Source of the DNA: Treponemataceae bacterium
GTDB lineage: Bacteria > Spirochaetota > Spirochaetia > Treponematales > Treponemataceae
Direction of reading: 5' to 3'
Assembly (NCBI GenBank): GCA_024680915.1
Contig: JAILBN010000002.1
Span: 1 to 39,688 of the forward strand
DNA: 39,688 nt
The translations under genes were made by a program, and so were the position numbers. Below the pieces are notes generated by a model. It made no database searches. It saw only the letters and a list, made by a program, of their open reading frames with translations, and was not told the DNA's origin. Positions 30,234 to 39,408 of the stretch are shown in pieces; the first letter of the stretch is position 1; each line of letters starts with the position of its first letter.

Positions 30234-31106
30234 ATGGCTAAGTCTGGACTTGCCCAAAAACTTGGAAGACTCTTTGGTCTGTATAAAAATAAAAACGAGG
30301 ATTTTTTCGATGAGCTTACAGATTCTCTTATAGAAGGGGATATCGGGGCTAAGACAGCTTTTGAGATAACAGAGGTTCTGGAGAAAAAATGCCGTGAAAA
30401 GCATCTTTCAGAGGAAGAGGCGATAAAGAAAGAGCTTAAGGAGCTTCTCCTTTCCTTCATCAAGACGGTGGAGCTTAAACCCAGAAAAGAAGATGTGTCT
30501 ATCTTTATGTTCCTTGGAGTGAACGGAGCCGGGAAAACCACCTCTGCAGCCAAGCTTGCCCGTTATTATACCAATGCAGGACATTCTGTGGTTCTTGCGG
30601 CTGCAGATACTTACCGTGCGGCAGCGATAGAACAACTCTCTTATCACGGAGAGAAACTGGGGATCCGTGTCGTATCTCATCAGCATGGAGCGGATCCTTC
30701 TGCTGTTGTTTTTGATGCGGCTGCTGCTGCGGCGGCAAAGGGCGGGGCTCTTGTCATTGCTGATACCGCCGGTCGTCTCCACAACAAGGAGAACCTGGTC
30801 CGTGAGCTGCAGAAAATAGATAGGATAGCTGCTCAGAAGGCTTCTGCCGGTGCTTACAAAAAGCTTATCGTTCTTGATGCTACCACAGGCCAGAATGCTA
30901 TGCGTCAGGCTGAGGTTTTTAATGAGGCTGTCGGTGTCGATGCCGCCGTTCTGACTAAATACGATTCCACTGCCAAGGGAGGAATCGCCGTCTCCTTGGG
31001 TCGCGAGCTGGGGATACCCGTCGCTTTCGTATGCACGGGAGAGAAATATGATGATATAGAGCCCTTCTCCCCAGAGAAATATGTAGACGAATTCCTGGAA
31101 GGCTGA
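30234..31106 (+). CDS. ftsY: Signal recognition particle receptor FtsY
   Basis: A 290-residue SRP GTPase receptor that brings membrane-protein-making ribosomes to the translocon. The N domain covers residues 1-85. The G domain has GVNGAGKTT (95-103), DTYRAAAIEQL (125-135), DTAGR (177-181) and TKYDSTAKGG, where most relatives have TKLDGTAKGG. The acidic A domain of E. coli FtsY is missing, as in many compact FtsY proteins. GGAGG six bases upstream fixes the ATG. Its neighbours are secreted or membrane proteins and the Lol-type transporter, giving the locus an envelope-biogenesis theme. Confidence 0.96.
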   Translation: MAKSGLAQKLGRLFGLYKNKNEDFFDELTDSLIEGDIGAKTAFEITEVLEKKCREKHLSEEEAIKKELKELLLSFIKTVELKPRKEDVSIFMFLGVNGAGKTTSAAKLARYYTNAGHSVVLAAADTYRAAAIEQLSYHGEKLGIRVVSHQHGADPSAVVFDAAAAAAAKGGALVIADTAGRLHNKENLVRELQKIDRIAAQKASAGAYKKLIVLDATTGQNAMRQAEVFNEAVGVDAAVLTKYDSTAKGGIAVSLGRELGIPVAFVCTGEKYDDIEPFSPEKYVDEFLEG

Positions 31107-31108
31107 TT

Positions 31109-31834
31109 ATGACGGTGAAATACCGCTTCCTTGTCCTTCTTTTTCTTTTCTCTGCCCCTCTTGTTCAGGCGGATACTTTTACCCAGGGACAGACAGGGCA
31201 GCTTCGCTCTTTTGTCACTGATGAGGAGACTTATGGTTTTTCCTCTGATGCCACTAATCTGCAATCCATATACGTGGTCAGCGAGGACGGCATAACTCTC
31301 CGTATGTATGACGATCAGAACCGTATAGAACGGGAGACACGGTGGAACAAAGACTATTCCAAGATTGACTCTGTCTTTGAATATACTTATTCAGGGACAA
31401 AAATGACTCCTTCGTCAAAAATAGAGAAATATCCTTCACAGTCAAAAGAAATTGAAATACAATATAATGATACGGGTATTGAGGAAAAACGTGTGGTCTA
31501 TAAGACGGAAGGTACCCGCAGGGAAGTGGTGGAGACAGTAACCTGGGAGTATGATTCCAAAGGCAGAATTGCTGAGGAGAAGCACCTTTCAGGAGGGACG
31601 TCTCCTTCCGAGGATAAGTACGCTTATCTCTATAACGATAACGATCTTCCCCCCGATTATTATGTTTATAAGGACGGCGTTCTTCTGGAGAAGACAGCTT
31701 ATGTCTCCGACACAGAATACTGGTCTGTGGTATATTTCGGGAATTATGAGGTATGGACTCGCTATGTCTATGGAGAGAAGAAGGAAGAATTGTATAAACT
31801 TGACGGTGTCATTCAGCGCAGGAGTTCGTTTTGA
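31109..31834 (+). CDS. Secreted protein of unknown function
   Basis: Not assigned to a family. The 241-residue product has a signal peptide (residues 1-21, FLVLLFLFSAPLVQA). The mature part contains short repeated strands such as YDDQNRIERETRWN, YDSKGRIAEEKH and YNDNDLPPDYYVYKDG, like the YD/RHS or MORN-type beta repeats of bacterial surface proteins. It starts two bases after the ftsY stop. Its C-terminal codons hold AGGAG, the ribosome-binding site of the following permease, so expression is linked to the Lol-type exporter. A periplasmic partner of that exporter is a reasonable guess only. Confidence 0.65.
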   Translation: MTVKYRFLVLLFLFSAPLVQADTFTQGQTGQLRSFVTDEETYGFSSDATNLQSIYVVSEDGITLRMYDDQNRIERETRWNKDYSKIDSVFEYTYSGTKMTPSSKIEKYPSQSKEIEIQYNDTGIEEKRVVYKTEGTRREVVETVTWEYDSKGRIAEEKHLSGGTSPSEDKYAYLYNDNDLPPDYYVYKDGVLLEKTAYVSDTEYWSVVYFGNYEVWTRYVYGEKKEELYKLDGVIQRRSSF

Positions 31835-33129
31835 GTTCAAACAAAAGATTGCCCTGGATTTTTTTTATTTCCCGCCGCTTTGCTAAAGTCGACAGCAGGG
31901 GAAGGGCTGCCGCCTCCGGAGTCCTTGCGTCCTTGGGTATAGGTGCTGGGGTGGCTGTTCTTATAGTCATAGTTTCTGTCATGAATGGATTCCAGGCCGG
32001 TTATATAAAAAGTATTATGGAGATAAGCTCCTTCCATATACGAGCCGTACCCGAGACACCTCCTGAGGATGAGAAGGCTTTTCTGAAAGAAATTTTGGGA
32101 ACAGATGGAGTCTTGACTGCTGTTCCCATGTATGAGGCTCAGAGCCTGGTGGTAGGGAAAAACGGCAGGCAACAGTCTGCCCTGATAAGGGGCCTCCCTT
32201 GGTATATTTTTGCTTCTGATAAGGGTTTCGCAGAGCAGATAACGGTATCTGCCGGCCGGTTCGATATAAAAGAAGAAATGACCTGTGTCCTGGGCAGCTC
32301 CATAGCAAGAAAGCTGAGCGTAAGACCTGGTGATGAGGTGAATCTTCTCGCTCTTTCTGGAGGAGAGGAGACAGAACTTTTCTCTGGCGACAGAAAGCTG
32401 AAGGTCACTGGTATATTCAGCTGCGGCTATGCAGATATAAACTCTTCTTTTATTTTCATCTCCCTTGATACTGCCGCTGAGATTCTTGGGCTGGATTCAG
32501 CCCATTTCTACGGAATAAAGCTGAAGGACTCCGAGACTGACCAACGCTGCCTTTCCATTCTTGAGAATAAATTCCCCGGTGTGGGTTTTGAATCCTGGCG
32601 CAGCTACAACAGATCCTTTTTCGGTGCCTTGAAAATAGAGAAAAATGTCCTGATGATGCTGGCCTTCCTTATCTTCGTCGTGGTCGGAGTAAATATTTTC
32701 AACTCTATGAGGCGTATGGTATATGAGCATCATGAGGAGACTGCTGTTCTTTCTGCCCTTGGGGCTAAGAAGAAAGAGATACAGCTTGTTTTTATCCTGC
32801 AAGGAATGACCACGGGACTTTATGGAGCCATTCCAGGTCTTTTCGCCGGTCTTGCGATCTGTGCCAAAATGAAAGATGTCTTTGTTCTTTTTTCTAATGC
32901 AGCTTATAATGTCCAGCTGTTTTTCTATATGCTTTTCAATCCCCAGGCAGCGTATGCTCTGAAGACAAACAGTATGTTCCTCTTCTATTCAAAGATACCT
33001 GCTGTAGTAGTCTTTTCGGAAGTAGCGTATATAACTTTGTTCGGAATAGCAGCGTCCCTTCTTGCTTCTTGGTTCGCCAGCAGGAATGCGCTTAAAGTCT
33101 CTGTAGCGGAGGTCCTCCACGATGAGTAG
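31831..33129 (+). CDS. LolC/LolE-type lipoprotein exporter permease 1
   Basis: A 432-residue FtsX-like permease. One helix lies near the N-terminus (ASLGIGAGVAVLIVIVSVMNGF, about 32-52, with FISRRFAKVDSRG before it), then a periplasmic domain (about 55-270) and three helices at 275-415. LolC/E proteins pull lipoproteins from the inner membrane for delivery to the outer one; LolCDE is the closest known family. The start is TTG, backed by AGGAG six bases upstream. The end overlaps the LolD-type ATPase by 8 bases. A second, divergent permease follows, so the complex is likely a heterodimer plus two ATPase copies. Confidence 0.85.
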   Translation: MSSNKRLPWIFFISRRFAKVDSRGRAAASGVLASLGIGAGVAVLIVIVSVMNGFQAGYIKSIMEISSFHIRAVPETPPEDEKAFLKEILGTDGVLTAVPMYEAQSLVVGKNGRQQSALIRGLPWYIFASDKGFAEQITVSAGRFDIKEEMTCVLGSSIARKLSVRPGDEVNLLALSGGEETELFSGDRKLKVTGIFSCGYADINSSFIFISLDTAAEILGLDSAHFYGIKLKDSETDQRCLSILENKFPGVGFESWRSYNRSFFGALKIEKNVLMMLAFLIFVVVGVNIFNSMRRMVYEHHEETAVLSALGAKKKEIQLVFILQGMTTGLYGAIPGLFAGLAICAKMKDVFVLFSNAAYNVQLFFYMLFNPQAAYALKTNSMFLFYSKIPAVVVFSEVAYITLFGIAASLLASWFASRNALKVSVAEVLHDE

Positions 33130-33817
33130 AGAAGGAAAAAAATGTGTGGTAAAAATCAAAGGTCTTACAAAGACCTTTTCTTCAGATGGAATAAAGCCTC
33201 TGACTATACTGAACGGGCTTGATATGACCGTTTGGGAAGGAAGCAAGACCGTCATATGCGGAGCCAGCGGAAGTGGGAAAAGCACCTTGCTCAATATAAT
33301 AGGCGGCTTGGAGTCTGTCTCTTCAGGAACTGTGGTGGCCGGAGATTATAATGTCAGCCTTCTTTCTGAAAAGGAGCTTACAGAATACAGATCAAAATAC
33401 CTGGGGCTTATTTTCCAGTTCCATTATCTTTTAAAAGATTTCACTGCCTTGGAGAACGTGATGCTTCCCTCCTATATGAGCGGGGTCTCCAAGAAGGCCG
33501 CCAAGGAAAGGGCAGCCCAGCTGCTCTGCGATGTAGGGCTGAAAGACCGCATGGAGCATCTTCCCTCCCAGCTGTCCGGCGGGGAGAGGCAGAGAGCCGC
33601 CGTGGCAAGGGCTCTTATAAACGATCCTTCTCTGATTCTTGCTGATGAGCCCACTGGAAACCTTGACCCGGAGAATGCGGCCCTTATATCGGATCTCCTT
33701 TTCAATATGGTCGATAAGTATCACAAGACCCTTCTGCTGGTGACCCATGATATGGGCCTTGCCTCCCGCGGCGACATCCGCTGCTGTATAAAAGAGGGGA
33801 AGCTGTCCGTCCTATGA
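33122..33817 (+). CDS. lolD: LolD-type ABC transporter ATPase
   Basis: A 231-residue ATPase of the LolD/MacB class. Walker [10 protein letters not shown] at residues 47-55, signature LSGGERQR at 151-158, Walker B LILADEP at 171-177, and H-loop in LLVTHD near 206. It should energise the two flanking permeases for lipoprotein release from the inner membrane; spirochaetes have very many lipoproteins. Its start overlaps the first permease by 8 bases and its stop overlaps the second as ATGA, so the three are translated together. Confidence 0.9.
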
Positions 33818-35136
33818 AAGCAACTTCCGTCCTTATGCTTTTCGGCCGGATAATAAAGCCGAAGGAAAAAGCCTCCTCCAACGCAAGAAAAAGTCTTATG
33901 GGAGCTATAGCCTGTATAGCCTTGAGCCTTATTCCCCTGGTCGTCGTCATCACTGTCTCTGACGGAATGATCGAAGGAATTACCGGCAGGGTCATAGGGC
34001 TTTCAAGTTTCCATATGCAGGTAACACAGACAACGACTTTTAAAAGCACGGAAGAGAATTTTGAGGTTCTTGAGAATGTCGCCGGGCAAGTCAGGGAGCT
34101 TCCTGGAGTAGTATCCACTTTCATTGAGAGAAGCGGTTCTGTGCTGGCGGCTGGAAAGAAAGGGCGGAGCGGGGCTTCCCTGCGGGCTGTGGAAGAGACT
34201 TTTTTCACGGATAACCAGGCTTTCTCGCAATATGTGGATGTAATTGACGGTACAGCCTCTTTTCCTACCGCCAACAGCGCCGTGGTCGGCAAAAAAATCG
34301 CCGAGACCATAGGACTCGGAGTAGGTGATACTATACGTATCATCTCCGGCAGGACCGGAACGGACGGAAAAGTCACTCCAAAGGTAAAGACCTTCAAGGT
34401 CAGCGGAATTGTTTCCAGCGGCTATCAGGAAATTGATGCTCTTTGGGTTTTCATCCCCTTGGAGACAGGCTTCAGCTTCTTGTCTTCGGCGGCTTCCCAG
34501 ATTTTCGTGGGAGTTGAGACAAGCGATGCTTTCTCGGATACGCTTTATCAAGTTGTCTATGATATCTATTCTTTTCTTCCTTCTGAGTTTACAATATACA
34601 CGTGGAAGGATTTGAACTCCACCCAGTATGAGAGCTATGCATCGACAAGGATACTCCTTGTATTCATAATGGTTCTTATCGTTCTGGTGGCTTCTGTCAA
34701 TATCTCATCCGCCTTGGTTATGCTTGTGCTGGAGAGACGGAAAGAGACCGCCGTGTTGAAAAGCCTGGGAGCCTCTCCTGCAGGTATTTCCGTGGCCTAT
34801 CTTCTTACCGGGGCTGTGTCCGGCGGGGTAGGAACCCTTCTGGGAATTCCTCTGGGGGTGGTTTCTGCTCTGAAAATAAACGAAATAATGAAGTTTTGTG
34901 AGAATTTGGTTAACGTAATCGGAAGATTTATATATATTATAAGTGCAGGAAGAGAGTATGTTCCCATACGTCTTATGGATCCTGCATATTATCTGGAAGA
35001 GATACCTGTAAAGATTCCCTTTCCAGAATTGTTTTTGATAGCCCTTTCTGCCGTTGTGCTTTCTGCTCTTGTTTCCATTATCCCTGCGGTGCATGCGGGG
35101 CGGGAGAAGCCTTTGAATATACTCCGCAAGGTGTGA
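33814..35136 (+). CDS. LolC/LolE-type lipoprotein exporter permease 2
   Basis: A 440-residue FtsX-like permease with the same layout as the first: an N-terminal helix (ACIALSLIPLVVVITVSDGM), a periplasmic domain (about 50-265) and three C-terminal helices, the first reading RILLVFIMVLIVLVASVNI. The motif RRKETAVLKSLGAS is the family's coupling loop to the ATPase. It is clearly different in sequence from permease 1, so the exporter is of the LolC plus LolE kind rather than a LolF homodimer. The ATG overlaps the lolD stop (ATGA). It ends the operon 32 bases before mcsA. Confidence 0.85.
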   Translation: MKATSVLMLFGRIIKPKEKASSNARKSLMGAIACIALSLIPLVVVITVSDGMIEGITGRVIGLSSFHMQVTQTTTFKSTEENFEVLENVAGQVRELPGVVSTFIERSGSVLAAGKKGRSGASLRAVEETFFTDNQAFSQYVDVIDGTASFPTANSAVVGKKIAETIGLGVGDTIRIISGRTGTDGKVTPKVKTFKVSGIVSSGYQEIDALWVFIPLETGFSFLSSAASQIFVGVETSDAFSDTLYQVVYDIYSFLPSEFTIYTWKDLNSTQYESYASTRILLVFIMVLIVLVASVNISSALVMLVLERRKETAVLKSLGASPAGISVAYLLTGAVSGGVGTLLGIPLGVVSALKINEIMKFCENLVNVIGRFIYIISAGREYVPIRLMDPAYYLEEIPVKIPFPELFLIALSAVVLSALVSIIPAVHAGREKPLNILRKV

Positions 35137-35168: not shown

Positions 35169-35639
35169 ATGAAATGTGATATTTGTGGAATACGCGATGC
35201 AGTAATGTTCATACAGGAGGTGACTCCTACTTCTACCCGGGAGCTTCATCTTTGTGCGGAATGTGCCGCTGAGAAACACATAAGCACTGAAGGTGGACGA
35301 CTTGACGTATCTCTTGGGAAAATATTCCCTATGCGCCCTGAGAACAGGCTTTGCCGCATCTGCGGACTTTCCCTTGCCGATCTTCGTAAATACAGAAGGG
35401 CAGGCTGCCCGAACTGTTATAAGGATTTTGCCTCTGAGATAAATGCAATGCTTTTCGGGTCCAAAAAAAATGAAGCTTATAAGGGTTCTTTGCCCAGGCG
35501 TATTGCAGGCTTCCGCTCCAAGCTTGAGGACAGGGCTGTCCTTGAGAATAGTTTGAGTGAGTCTGTCGCCCGTGAGGATTATGAGAAAGCAGCCGTTTAT
35601 CGTGACAGGCTCAGGGAGTTGGACCGGCTTGATGACTGA
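35169..35639 (+). CDS. mcsA: McsA-like zinc-finger/UVR-motif protein
   Basis: A 156-residue protein with four CxxC pairs (C3/C6, C29/C32, C62/C65, C80/C83), enough for two zinc sites, and a C-terminal UVR motif (about 120-156, EDYEKAAVYRDRLRELDR). In Firmicutes McsA activates the protein arginine kinase McsB and links it to CtsR and ClpC. No ctsR gene is seen here. The ATG has only GGTGA seven bases upstream. The mcsB start overlaps its stop codon by 8 bases. All metal ligands are intact, in contrast with the eroded McsB. Confidence 0.9.
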   Translation: MKCDICGIRDAVMFIQEVTPTSTRELHLCAECAAEKHISTEGGRLDVSLGKIFPMRPENRLCRICGLSLADLRKYRRAGCPNCYKDFASEINAMLFGSKKNEAYKGSLPRRIAGFRSKLEDRAVLENSLSESVAREDYEKAAVYRDRLRELDRLDD

Positions 35640-36732
35640 TATAACCGCTACCGAACAGCAGAATTCCTGGTTCGCCGATGATGGCATGGATACAGATGTG
35701 GTTCTTTCGACCAGGGTTCGTCTTGCCAGAAATCTTTCTGATTTCCCCTTTCCTGAGTTCATAAAAAATGATTCCGATGAAAGAGTAAGGGCAATTCTAT
35801 TTGATGCCTTCTCCCGTTCTCCTGATGCCGACATGTACCAGACTCTTTCTGTAAGGAACTTAGAGCAGTTGGGAGGTATGATTCTTGTGGAAAGGGGTGT
35901 GCTTCCCCCCGGGGCCGCAGAGAATCCTTCCACGGGAATAATAGTCCGTTCTGATGGAAGAATTTCTGGTACTGTAAACTATCATGATCATCTCCATCTT
36001 TCTTCCTTTGTTTCTGGCTTTGATCCGGCTGCGGCTTGTGCCCTGGTGAGCAGTGTAGATGAGGAGCTCCAGAAATACGTTCAGTTCGCCGGCAACTTAG
36101 AATTCGGTTATTTCACCAGCCGCTTGCGGGATGCCGGCACGGGGATGAAAACATCCGTTATGATACATATCCCCTCCATCGTCTATCAGAATCTGCATCA
36201 CACCCTTTTCAAGACTCTTGTGGAAAGTGGCTTTGATATATATGCCTGCTATGCCGTGGCACCTGTGGGTAACACTAAAACATTGGGAGCCTGGTACAGA
36301 CTTTGTACCGATTCCTGCTTCCCGTTGAGCGAGACGGACCAGATAGCCTCCGTGACACAGGCTGTACGCAATATAATAAATGTGGAGCGTAATGCCAGGA
36401 AAGACATTCTTGCTGATAGGCCCACTATGGCTAAAGATATTGTTTACAGAGCGATAGCCGCTATAAAATACAGCCGTTATGTGTCATTCCGGGAGGGAGT
36501 GGAGCTGGTTTCCTCCCTTAAATGGGGTGTAAGCCTCGGTCTTATTGACGGTTTCTCCGATGGGGATCTTTATTCTTTGCTTTATCGTATCCAATCGGCT
36601 CATCTTCTTTTTATTGCCCGTCAGGAAGGCTTGTCTTTTGAGAAAGATGTAATATCTAATAACCAGAAAGCTGACAGACTTCGTTCAATAATTCTTCAGG
36701 AAGCAGTTTCTCAGGTGCATTTCCTTGTCTAG
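35632..36732 (+). CDS. mcsB: McsB-family protein, catalytically degenerate phosphagen-kinase fold
   Basis: A 366-residue homologue of the protein arginine kinase McsB, which marks proteins with phospho-arginine for ClpCP. The nucleotide-binding start is kept (LSTRVRLARNLSDFPFP, residues 25-41). The catalytic blocks are not: the INEEDHIR block reads VNYHDHLHL (115-123), so the glutamates are Y117 and H118. The loop with the catalytic cysteine (TSCPTNLGTG in relatives) reads TSRLRDAGTG (162-171), without cysteine. The GIYGEGTEA loop reads CYAVAPVGNTK (206-216), lacking its glutamate. The last pArg-binding part is also changed (NNQKADRLR). It may be a pseudokinase adaptor. Start at 35632 follows from overlap with mcsA. 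Confidence 0.82.
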   Translation: MTDITATEQQNSWFADDGMDTDVVLSTRVRLARNLSDFPFPEFIKNDSDERVRAILFDAFSRSPDADMYQTLSVRNLEQLGGMILVERGVLPPGAAENPSTGIIVRSDGRISGTVNYHDHLHLSSFVSGFDPAAACALVSSVDEELQKYVQFAGNLEFGYFTSRLRDAGTGMKTSVMIHIPSIVYQNLHHTLFKTLVESGFDIYACYAVAPVGNTKTLGAWYRLCTDSCFPLSETDQIASVTQAVRNIINVERNARKDILADRPTMAKDIVYRAIAAIKYSRYVSFREGVELVSSLKWGVSLGLIDGFSDGDLYSLLYRIQSAHLLFIARQEGLSFEKDVISNNQKADRLRSIILQEAVSQVHFLV

Positions 36733-36786: not shown

Positions 36787-39408
36787 ATGATAAAAGGTTT
36801 TTCCCCTCGTGCCCAGAAGCTTCTTTCCGTTTCGGCAGTTGCGGAAGTACGCCGATTTAAGGGACTGCAGATTCAGCCGGAGCATGTCATGCTGGCTATG
36901 ATCAAACTGGCTGAAGGTGTGGGCTATGAGACCATGAACCAGCTTTACGTGAATATCCTTATGTTCCAGCTTGCTTTGGAGCAGGCTGTGAGCAACTATG
37001 ATGATTCTGTTAAGTCAGGCTTTTCTTCTAATGCTGAGGTTATTCCCAGCCGCAGGTTAAAAACCCTTCTTGATATGGCTGCCGTTGAGTCCCGTTCCAT
37101 GAGGTGTGAATATGTGGGCACGGAGCATATTTTTCTTGCTGCTTTAAGGGAGGAGAACAGCGTCACCGCTCGTTTCTTCCAGTCTATACCGGTCACGGTG
37201 GATGTTGCCCGTAAAATGGTGCTTAAGGCGGAGGAGGTTGTGGATACTTCTGCTTTGCAGACAAGTCCGTCTGCCTCCAATGCAGAGGCTGGAAGCTCCA
37301 AGGGTGCCCAGATGCCGGGTAACGATTCCTCCGGCAAGCAGAAGCAAAAGGCTTCCTTGCTTAAGGAGTTCAGCCGGGATCTGACGGAGAACGCCCGTTC
37401 TGGGCTCTGCGACCCGGTTATAGGTCGTGAGAGGGAAATACAAAGGGTCATCCAGATTCTTTGCCGCCGCAACAAGAATAATCCGGTTCTTATAGGTGAA
37501 CCTGGTGTCGGCAAAACCGCGATTGTAGAAGGACTCGCGCAGCGTATCGTCGCGGAACAGGTTCCTGGCTGCCTTGTGAACAAGCGTGTCCTGGTCCTTG
37601 ATCTGGCCCTGGTCATTGCGGGAACAAAATACCGCGGTGAGTTCGAGGAAAGAATAAAAGGCATAGTCAAGGAAATAGCAGAGCAGAAAAATATAATACT
37701 TTTCATAGATGAGCTTCACACTTTGATTGGGGCTGGTGGCGCGGAAGGCTCTATGGACGCTTCCAACATGCTTAAGCCGGCTCTTGCCCGCGGCGAGCTT
37801 CAGTGTATCGGAGCCACCACCATAAAGGAATACCGAAAATATTTCGAGAAGGATGCGGCCCTTGAGAGAAGGTTCCAGATGGTCATGGTCAACGAGCCTG
37901 ATGATGCTGATACCCTGGCCATCCTTTACGGGATAAAGCCTAAATATGAGGAATTCCATCATGTGAAATATGCGGAGGGTGTTCTGGAGCTTGTAGTCCG
38001 CTTTGCCCGCCGCTATATAACAGAGCGTTTCTTGCCGGATAAAGCGATTGACCTTCTTGACGAAGCAGGCGCCATGAAGAAGATAGAGGCTGACGAGAGA
38101 CCTGCGGAGCTTGCTGAGCTTGAGCAGCAGATAGCCCTTCTTACAGAAGAGAAGCAGCTCATGGAGCAGAGCCAGAACTACGAGCGTTGTGCGGAAGTCC
38201 GGGATGAAGTCCGTATCCTCCGTATGAAGGCTGAGCAGCTTGAGAAAAATAATGTGACCACTGTTATCACCGAGAAAAATACTGTCACTCCGGCAGATAT
38301 CTGTACTGTGGTTTCCACAATGACCGGTATCCCCATGGATCAGCTGGATACGGCAGAGACAGAACGCTTGCTTGATATGGAGAAGGAGATTCATAAGACC
38401 GTCATCGCTCAGGATGAGGCAGTCTCCCTTATCTCCTCCGCTGTAAGGCGGGCAAGGGCAGGAGTATCATCTTTTAAGCGGCCTCAAGGCTCTTTCATAT
38501 TTCTTGGTCCTACAGGCGTGGGTAAAACGCTTCTTGCAAAAACTCTTGCCACCTTCCTTTTCGGCTCTGAAGAAGCTCTTATCAGGGTTGATATGAGCGA
38601 CTTCATGGAGAAGCATACTGCCAGCCGTCTTGTGGGTGCGCCGCCGGGTTACGTGGGCTACGAGGAGGGCGGAGTCCTTACTGAGAAGGTGCGTCGAAAG
38701 CCCTACTGCGTGGTGCTCCTTGACGAGATAGAGAAGGCTCACCCTGATATCTTCAACCTGCTTCTTCAGGTTCTGGAGGAGGGAGAGCTCCGCGACAATC
38801 TGGGCCATACAGTGAGCTTCAGGAACGCTGTAATAATAATGACCAGCAATGCCGGTGTGCGCCGTATATCCAACGAGAACAGCCTTGGCTTTTCTTCCAA
38901 TTCCAGTGGAATAATGTCCTACGACTCAATCAAGGCCGATGCCATGAACGAGCTTAAGCGCATCCTTAACCCTGAATTGCTGAACCGTATAGATGATGTG
39001 GTGGTTTTCAACGCCCTTTCAGAGGAAGAAGTCTCTGCTATCCTTGATTTGCAGATAGACGAGTTCAGAAAACGCATTGCCGAGAAAGGCCTTGATATTG
39101 AGCTTAAGCCTTCCGCAAGACGATATTTTATCGAGAACGGCTATGATCCGGCCTTCGGTGCGCGTCCGATGAGGCGGCTTATCCAGCGTGAGCTGGAGGA
39201 TGCGACAGCCACTCTGATTTTGCAGGGCAAATGCAAAAAAGGAAGCATTCTTGTTGCCGAAGCGAAAAACGATAAGCTTGTGCTTGGCGTGAAGGCGGAA
39301 GCGGATAAAGAGCATGGCGCGACAAGTTCGGTGGCTGCGAAAAAGTCAGATAAAAAGCGTGCGACCGGCAAAAAATCCAGAACAGCGAAAGTTTCTGCGG
39401 AAAAATAG
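36787..39408 (+). CDS. clpC: ATP-dependent Clp protease ATP-binding subunit ClpC
   Basis: A 873-residue AAA+ unfoldase that feeds proteins to ClpP. Domains in order: N-terminal double repeat (1-145), a linker rich in S, G and K (150-190), AAA1 with GEPGVGKT near 237 and Walker B IILFIDELH, a middle domain with a UVR-like helix (YERCAEVRDEVRILR, about 460-475) typical of ClpC, AAA2 with GPTGVGKT near 574 and VVLLDEIEKAHPD, and a C-terminal D2-small domain. The tail is long and lysine-rich (KKSDKKRATGKKSRTAK). A GGGAG site lies eight bases before the ATG. It follows mcsA-mcsB as in Firmicutes. Confidence 0.95.
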   Translation: MIKGFSPRAQKLLSVSAVAEVRRFKGLQIQPEHVMLAMIKLAEGVGYETMNQLYVNILMFQLALEQAVSNYDDSVKSGFSSNAEVIPSRRLKTLLDMAAVESRSMRCEYVGTEHIFLAALREENSVTARFFQSIPVTVDVARKMVLKAEEVVDTSALQTSPSASNAEAGSSKGAQMPGNDSSGKQKQKASLLKEFSRDLTENARSGLCDPVIGREREIQRVIQILCRRNKNNPVLIGEPGVGKTAIVEGLAQRIVAEQVPGCLVNKRVLVLDLALVIAGTKYRGEFEERIKGIVKEIAEQKNIILFIDELHTLIGAGGAEGSMDASNMLKPALARGELQCIGATTIKEYRKYFEKDAALERRFQMVMVNEPDDADTLAILYGIKPKYEEFHHVKYAEGVLELVVRFARRYITERFLPDKAIDLLDEAGAMKKIEADERPAELAELEQQIALLTEEKQLMEQSQNYERCAEVRDEVRILRMKAEQLEKNNVTTVITEKNTVTPADICTVVSTMTGIPMDQLDTAETERLLDMEKEIHKTVIAQDEAVSLISSAVRRARAGVSSFKRPQGSFIFLGPTGVGKTLLAKTLATFLFGSEEALIRVDMSDFMEKHTASRLVGAPPGYVGYEEGGVLTEKVRRKPYCVVLLDEIEKAHPDIFNLLLQVLEEGELRDNLGHTVSFRNAVIIMTSNAGVRRISNENSLGFSSNSSGIMSYDSIKADAMNELKRILNPELLNRIDDVVVFNALSEEEVSAILDLQIDEFRKRIAEKGLDIELKPSARRYFIENGYDPAFGARPMRRLIQRELEDATATLILQGKCKKGSILVAEAKNDKLVLGVKAEADKEHGATSSVAAKKSDKKRATGKKSRTAKVSAEK

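Follow-up and report, generated by a model that had tools for sequence, protein, structure and literature searches.

A McsB homologue of Treponemataceae that lacks the kinase active site and is probably kept as a ClpC adaptor

The McsB homologue encoded between mcsA and clpC in a Treponemataceae bacterium, here called McsB*, has lost all the catalytic residues of McsB, a kinase that ordinarily marks damaged proteins for degradation. We interpret it as a McsB-derived pseudokinase that is kept as an McsA-bound, phosphorylation-independent adaptor of ClpCP, and we give this reading, in which the function is inferred from sequence, a probability of about two in three. McsB* is homologous to McsB and sited with McsA and ClpC, yet judged by the defining residues it is not a protein arginine kinase. 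A sequence-only reading of the window (the whole stretch of 39,688 nucleotides that was analysed) had also proposed a pseudokinase, acting as an adaptor or phospho-arginine (pArg) reader for ClpC without making the mark. Its pseudokinase proposal is supported by the loss of all catalytic residues, by the single copy found in the genome and by the clade-wide pattern of loss. As for the non-marking partner of ClpC, the adaptor gains indirect support from gene order, McsA co-occurrence, gene fusions, selection and a Bacillus subtilis mutant, while the pArg reader is not supported.

Locus and Predicted Structure

The locus consists of three genes:

35169-35639, forward strand: mcsA homologue, 156 aa, with four CxxC zinc pairs and a C-terminal UVR motif (NF053706, E-value 2.5e-20)
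35632-36732, forward strand: mcsB-like gene of the putative pseudokinase McsB*, 366 aa, identified by PF00217, NCBIfam, an AlphaFold2 model and PDB matches
36787-39408, forward strand: clpC, encoding an AAA+ unfoldase of 873 aa

The coordinates, frame and residues that had been given for the middle ORF proved accurate. The 3′ end of mcsA, which scores below the NF053706 cut-off, overlaps the start of the McsB* gene by 8 bases (ATGACTGA, 35632-35639), and 54 bases separate the end of the McsB* gene from clpC; the gene thus sits in the operon with mcsA and clpC by which McsB is recognised. The protein belongs to the ATP:guanido phosphotransferase superfamily, with a PF00217 match of 101 bits (cut-off 22.4). 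Its scores for the NCBIfam McsB equivalogs are too low (178.6 versus 500 for NF053707 and 204.2 versus 385 for NF002194). Upstream, at 30234-35136 of the window, lie an ftsY-like gene and a LolCDE-type lipoprotein transporter, with two permeases flanking the ATPase.

An AlphaFold2 model of McsB*, made with 45 family members, has a pLDDT of 90.9, with low confidence at residues 212-214 in the lid loop. It aligns with McsB 6fh1 (chain 6fh1_B) at a Z-score of 40.9 and an rmsd of 2.3 over 336 residues in both domains, and with two other McsB structures, 6tv6 (Z 40.9) and 8gqd of Staphylococcus aureus (Z 31.6). Foldseek searches with the model gave an E-value of 2e-28 and TM-scores of 0.84-0.86. 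Both the kinase domain and the helical C-terminal domain of McsB are present in the model; the matches to eukaryotic phosphagen kinases fall in the kinase domain, at about residues 17-260. The fold, as modelled, is intact, and the chemistry is the missing part.

Loss of the Active Site

Residues were assigned by alignment to B. subtilis McsB and Geobacillus McsB. The B. subtilis reference was checked over residues 11-322 against a printed alignment. Five segments of McsB* are relevant:

35707-35733, forward strand: STRVRLARN segment; R28, R30 and R33 correspond to R29, R31 and R34, all retained
35977-35997, forward strand: NYHDHLH in place of NEEDHIR; E120/E121 replaced by Y117/H118 and R125 by H122
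36106-36150, forward strand: GYFTSRLRDAGTGMK in place of GYLTSCPTNVGTGLR; C167 replaced by R164 and R176 by K173
36238-36285, forward strand: lid loop IYACYAVAPVGNTKTL in place of VRGIYGEGSEAV; R207 replaced by Y204 and E212 by V209
36667-36702, forward strand: KADRLRSIILQE, counterpart of the pArg-receiving RDxxRA motif; R337 replaced by A347

The three altered catalytic loops described by the sequence-only reading are borne out by the alignment, in which none of E120, E121, C167 and E212 remains. Its remark that the STRVRLARN start, the McsB fold and the operon with McsA and ClpC are still there is also correct. The loss is wider than that reading had it. Among the active-site arginines R29, R34, R125, R176 and R207, the first two are retained (as R28 and R33) and the other three are replaced (by H122, K173 and Y204). 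D122 and H123 are retained as D119 and H120. The pArg-receiving R337-D338-x-x-R341 reads A347-D348-x-x-R351, so that D338 and R341 are both kept. The lid loop (YACYAVAPVGNTK) is longer than that of B. subtilis McsB and has no acidic residue. Assembly error can be dismissed, because two independent assemblies from the same genus (L094 and L122) carry identical Y117/H118/H122/R164/K173, and E120, E121, C167 and E212 are also absent from the complete isolate genomes of T. ruminis RU1 and T. parvum ATCC 700773.

A second, intact mcsB elsewhere in the genome had been suggested as a check. Searches of the 95.7%-complete genome with PF00217, P0001 and NF053707 found no second intact mcsB or arginine-kinase homologue and gave one match only, and single-contig relatives such as G010, G020 and G033 have one PF00217/McsB match each. 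Such absence calls need care, as the B. subtilis control genome gave no PF00217 or CtsR match in the genome search. B. subtilis is known to have both a PF00217 protein and CtsR. CtsR was not found in the source genome, which is a weak result given that it was missed in the control as well.

Distribution and Order of Loss

The 226 loci compared come from a phylum survey, a class survey and fetched loci, and some hold the same gene twice. Judging by the named genomes, the relatives belong to Treponema and other Treponemataceae. None of the 100 non-redundant family members (family counts leave out L047 and L034), none of the 12 sequences of other families in the order and none of the 60 counted from the rest of the class has C167 (0/172 for the class in total). 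This Cys is present in 24 of 36 sequences from other classes of the phylum, among which L128 and L136 keep all seven tested residues. Within the family, 80 of the 100 members keep none of E120, E121, C167 and E212, 18 keep one and two keep two. The comparison with other spirochaete McsB proteins, proposed by the earlier reading, thus shows C167 to be missing from every class sequence counted.

A tree built without the tested columns recovers the family as a single clade (SH-aLRT 99). This clade is nested in a larger group (92) that takes in all but two rows of the class, together with one long-branch row from another class. Mapping the residues on the tree requires five changes for C167 and 13-19 for the other six sites, although some long or unresolved deep branches make the precise count of losses uncertain. 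The pattern is consistent with the Cys having been lost early on and the remaining tested residues repeatedly thereafter.

Several loci depart from the common pattern. L047, at a contig start in G034, is a very divergent, truncated McsB-like fragment from the family of the source (18% identity); it has a Cys at the C167 position, while the other catalytic residues are absent. In two Treponemataceae loci, L025 and L125, E121 and the aligned E212 are kept and C167 is absent; their products may be intermediates with residual activity. At L170 (G150, genus g88), from a spirochaete of another class, McsB is degenerate too, reading NSNEHLE and having no Cys; McsA is present and no clpC adjoins. This is perhaps a separate loss. 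McsA and McsB are both absent from some family genomes (G025, G028 and others), one of which is a single contig of 1.1 Mb.

Selection on the Protein

In 21 active-type McsB sequences 39 columns are invariant, and within the family no two of these columns vary more than E120 and E121; the active-type set was picked by E121, R125, C167 and R176, whose invariance is therefore by construction, and E120 was not used. The other 34 invariant columns (C167, R125 and R176 left out) are retained in the family at a median of 93%. Chance variation can therefore be dismissed as the source of the change at E120 and E121. Compared with its two nearest relatives, McsB* has a pN of 0.08-0.13, like McsA and ClpC, with synonymous sites so near saturation that no firm dN/dS ratios follow. 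As read from these columns, constraint is gone from catalysis and not from the protein.

At five positions the family has switched to another fixed residue (I236 to Q, F323 to H, R346 to Q, E150 to Q and L318 to R). Three of these are in the C-terminal domain, where Q356 is fixed in the family, which suggests a re-tuned contact surface.

McsA, ClpC and ClpP

The order mcsA-mcsB-clpC is found at 207 of the 226 loci, and most exceptions only lack an adjoining ClpC or end too early. At L037 and L038, from family f3 of the same order as the source, a single open frame encodes both McsA and McsB, a natural fusion. Of 59 relatives, all 46 with a McsB gene have McsA, and zinc-finger McsA occurs in none of the 13 without one, where three weak McsA matches are UVR motifs only. 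In S. aureus, the loop of McsB that McsA contacts immediately precedes the catalytic Cys (PMC12467219). The stretch of McsB* before the Cys position matches this contact loop, and is conserved in the family (F in 98, A in 89, G in 100, L in 95 and T in 86 of 100 members). The source genome has two copies of ClpP.

Proposed Role and Alternatives

We propose that McsB* descends vertically from an active McsB and has lost the arginine-kinase chemistry. McsA, translated just ahead of it, would bind the conserved loop preceding the former Cys167, and the McsA-McsB* complex would dock on the N-terminal domain of ClpC. There it could present damaged or regulatory proteins, or free ClpC from its resting state, with protein contact replacing the pArg mark. 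Evidence against this model comes from B. subtilis, where stimulation of ClpC by McsB is reported to require kinase activity (PMC5506225), so a lineage that lost the kinase would have had to replace this step, perhaps, like MecA, by binding the pArg pockets directly. Evidence in its favour comes from the kinase-inactive B. subtilis McsB C167S, in which MgsR is degraded faster than in the deletion (half-life 12.3 versus 17.7 min), an effect that the authors read as kinase-independent adaptor action, while pointing for MgsR to ClpX, not ClpC (PMC7235348). C167S is a single artificial change, whereas in McsB* the entire active site has been lost, naturally and throughout a clade.

The main rival to this adaptor is a nucleotide-sensing pseudokinase, in which occupancy by ATP or ADP would switch the binding of McsA or ClpC without phosphotransfer. 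It owes this rank to the continued conservation of R28, R33 and the basic K173. McsB* also retains R30 and the NxxDH core, and the conservation extends through the family: the R29 position is kept in 95 of 100 members, the R34 position in 99, R125 in 71, and N119, D122 and H123 in 99, with Lys at the R176 position in 88. With R28, R33 and this Lys so highly conserved, nucleotide or anion binding, and a low or different activity, may persist in McsB*. Conversely, the source genus has mostly His at R125 and Tyr or Phe at R207, and R125K, R176K and R207K each abolish the activity of B. subtilis McsB (PMC7235348), so that K173 alone is expected to harm an active enzyme. On balance we regard nucleotide sensing as unlikely, at perhaps a third of the weight that we give to the adaptor.

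That McsB* reads phospho-arginine, binding clients marked by another kinase and delivering them to ClpC, we consider improbable. D338 and R341 of the RDxxRA motif are kept, and the N-terminal domain of ClpC has S6 (T7 in B. subtilis), E32, S88 (T81) and E113 (E106) at the pArg-pocket positions, with R8, R90 and K92 kept as well. However, the pArg pockets of ClpC also hold its resting state and bind MecA (PMC12583610), and because the same pockets hold the resting state, their residues do not decide pArg use. Against a reader stands the finding of no other arginine kinase homologue in the genome. R337, which is essential in B. subtilis, is Ala in McsB* and is missing almost throughout the phylum, even where the kinase residues are intact. 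The sole LMWPc phosphatase of the source genome (L228) has the motif CHGNICRS, and in these enzymes Ile at the key position indicates phosphotyrosine and Thr phospho-arginine (PMC8001253). Among the 30 genomes searched, the YwlE-type CTGNTCRS (CTGNTCRSPMAE) was found in G070 (L257) and G093 (L249), the same two genomes whose McsB is fully intact, with all seven tested residues kept.

Slightly less probable still is a kinase that remains active through rearranged chemistry, for instance by way of C206 or towards another target residue. C206 (36247-36249) lies two residues past the lost R207 position and is conserved in all seven genus members; in principle it could be a displaced catalytic residue, and it is the sole candidate. 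The folded C271A mutant of arginine kinase (1sd0) is among the structural matches, and the fold is thus independent of the Cys. Both catalytic Glu are lost as well, however, and the search of the McsB* sequence for a displaced Glu or Cys yielded a lid loop that is not conserved and has no acid, and C206, which occurs in just 39 of 100 family members. Finally, a pseudogene in decay, or a neutral leftover carried by the operon, with which the lost catalytic residues and relaxed active-site columns would agree, is rejected on the strong purifying selection, the stop-free frame in all relatives, the retention of the gene across the order and the conservation of the 34 other invariant residues.

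Returning to the adaptor, we tentatively extend it, at somewhat less than even odds, to the whole treponeme-holding class, which would run a pArg-free McsAB-ClpC system with the adaptor split from the kinase. R319, H324 and Q356 of the C-terminal domain, which are fixed specifically in the family and lie close, in sequence, to the former pArg site, would then form a new surface for ClpC or clients.

Relation to Known Systems and Implications

With the McsB kinases of Bacillus, Geobacillus and Staphylococcus (6tv6, 6fh1, 8gqd), McsB* shares the full-length two-domain fold, the N-terminal arginine motif, the NxxDH core, the GTG loop and the mcsA/clpC operon. It differs from them in that both Glu, the Cys, R125, R176 (Lys), R207 and R337 are replaced, and in scoring below the NCBIfam cut-offs. 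MecA-type ClpC adaptors resemble McsB* in the proposed contact with ClpC without modification. MecA does not have the phosphagen-kinase fold, and it gave no match to McsB* in the searches made. It binds both pArg sites of ClpC and the tip of the M-domain (PMC12583610). Bacterial Ser/Thr pseudokinase families likewise have a kinase fold without catalytic residues, but theirs is the Ser/Thr kinase fold and that of McsB* the phosphagen-kinase fold, and spirochaetes are unmentioned there (PMC12599244). The literature searched, the coverage of which was incomplete, yielded no account of a McsB clade that is kinase-dead by nature, or of a spirochaete McsB.

In Bacillus McsB the adaptor and kinase activities are hard to separate (PMC5506225). 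The lineage described here appears to have split the adaptor from the kinase role long ago and to have kept the protein. Annotations as 'protein arginine kinase', and pArg signalling inferred from a treponeme mcsB, are therefore likely wrong. Intact McsB (in other classes), Cys-less forms and complete loss make up a graded series, so the order of events is testable on real proteins.
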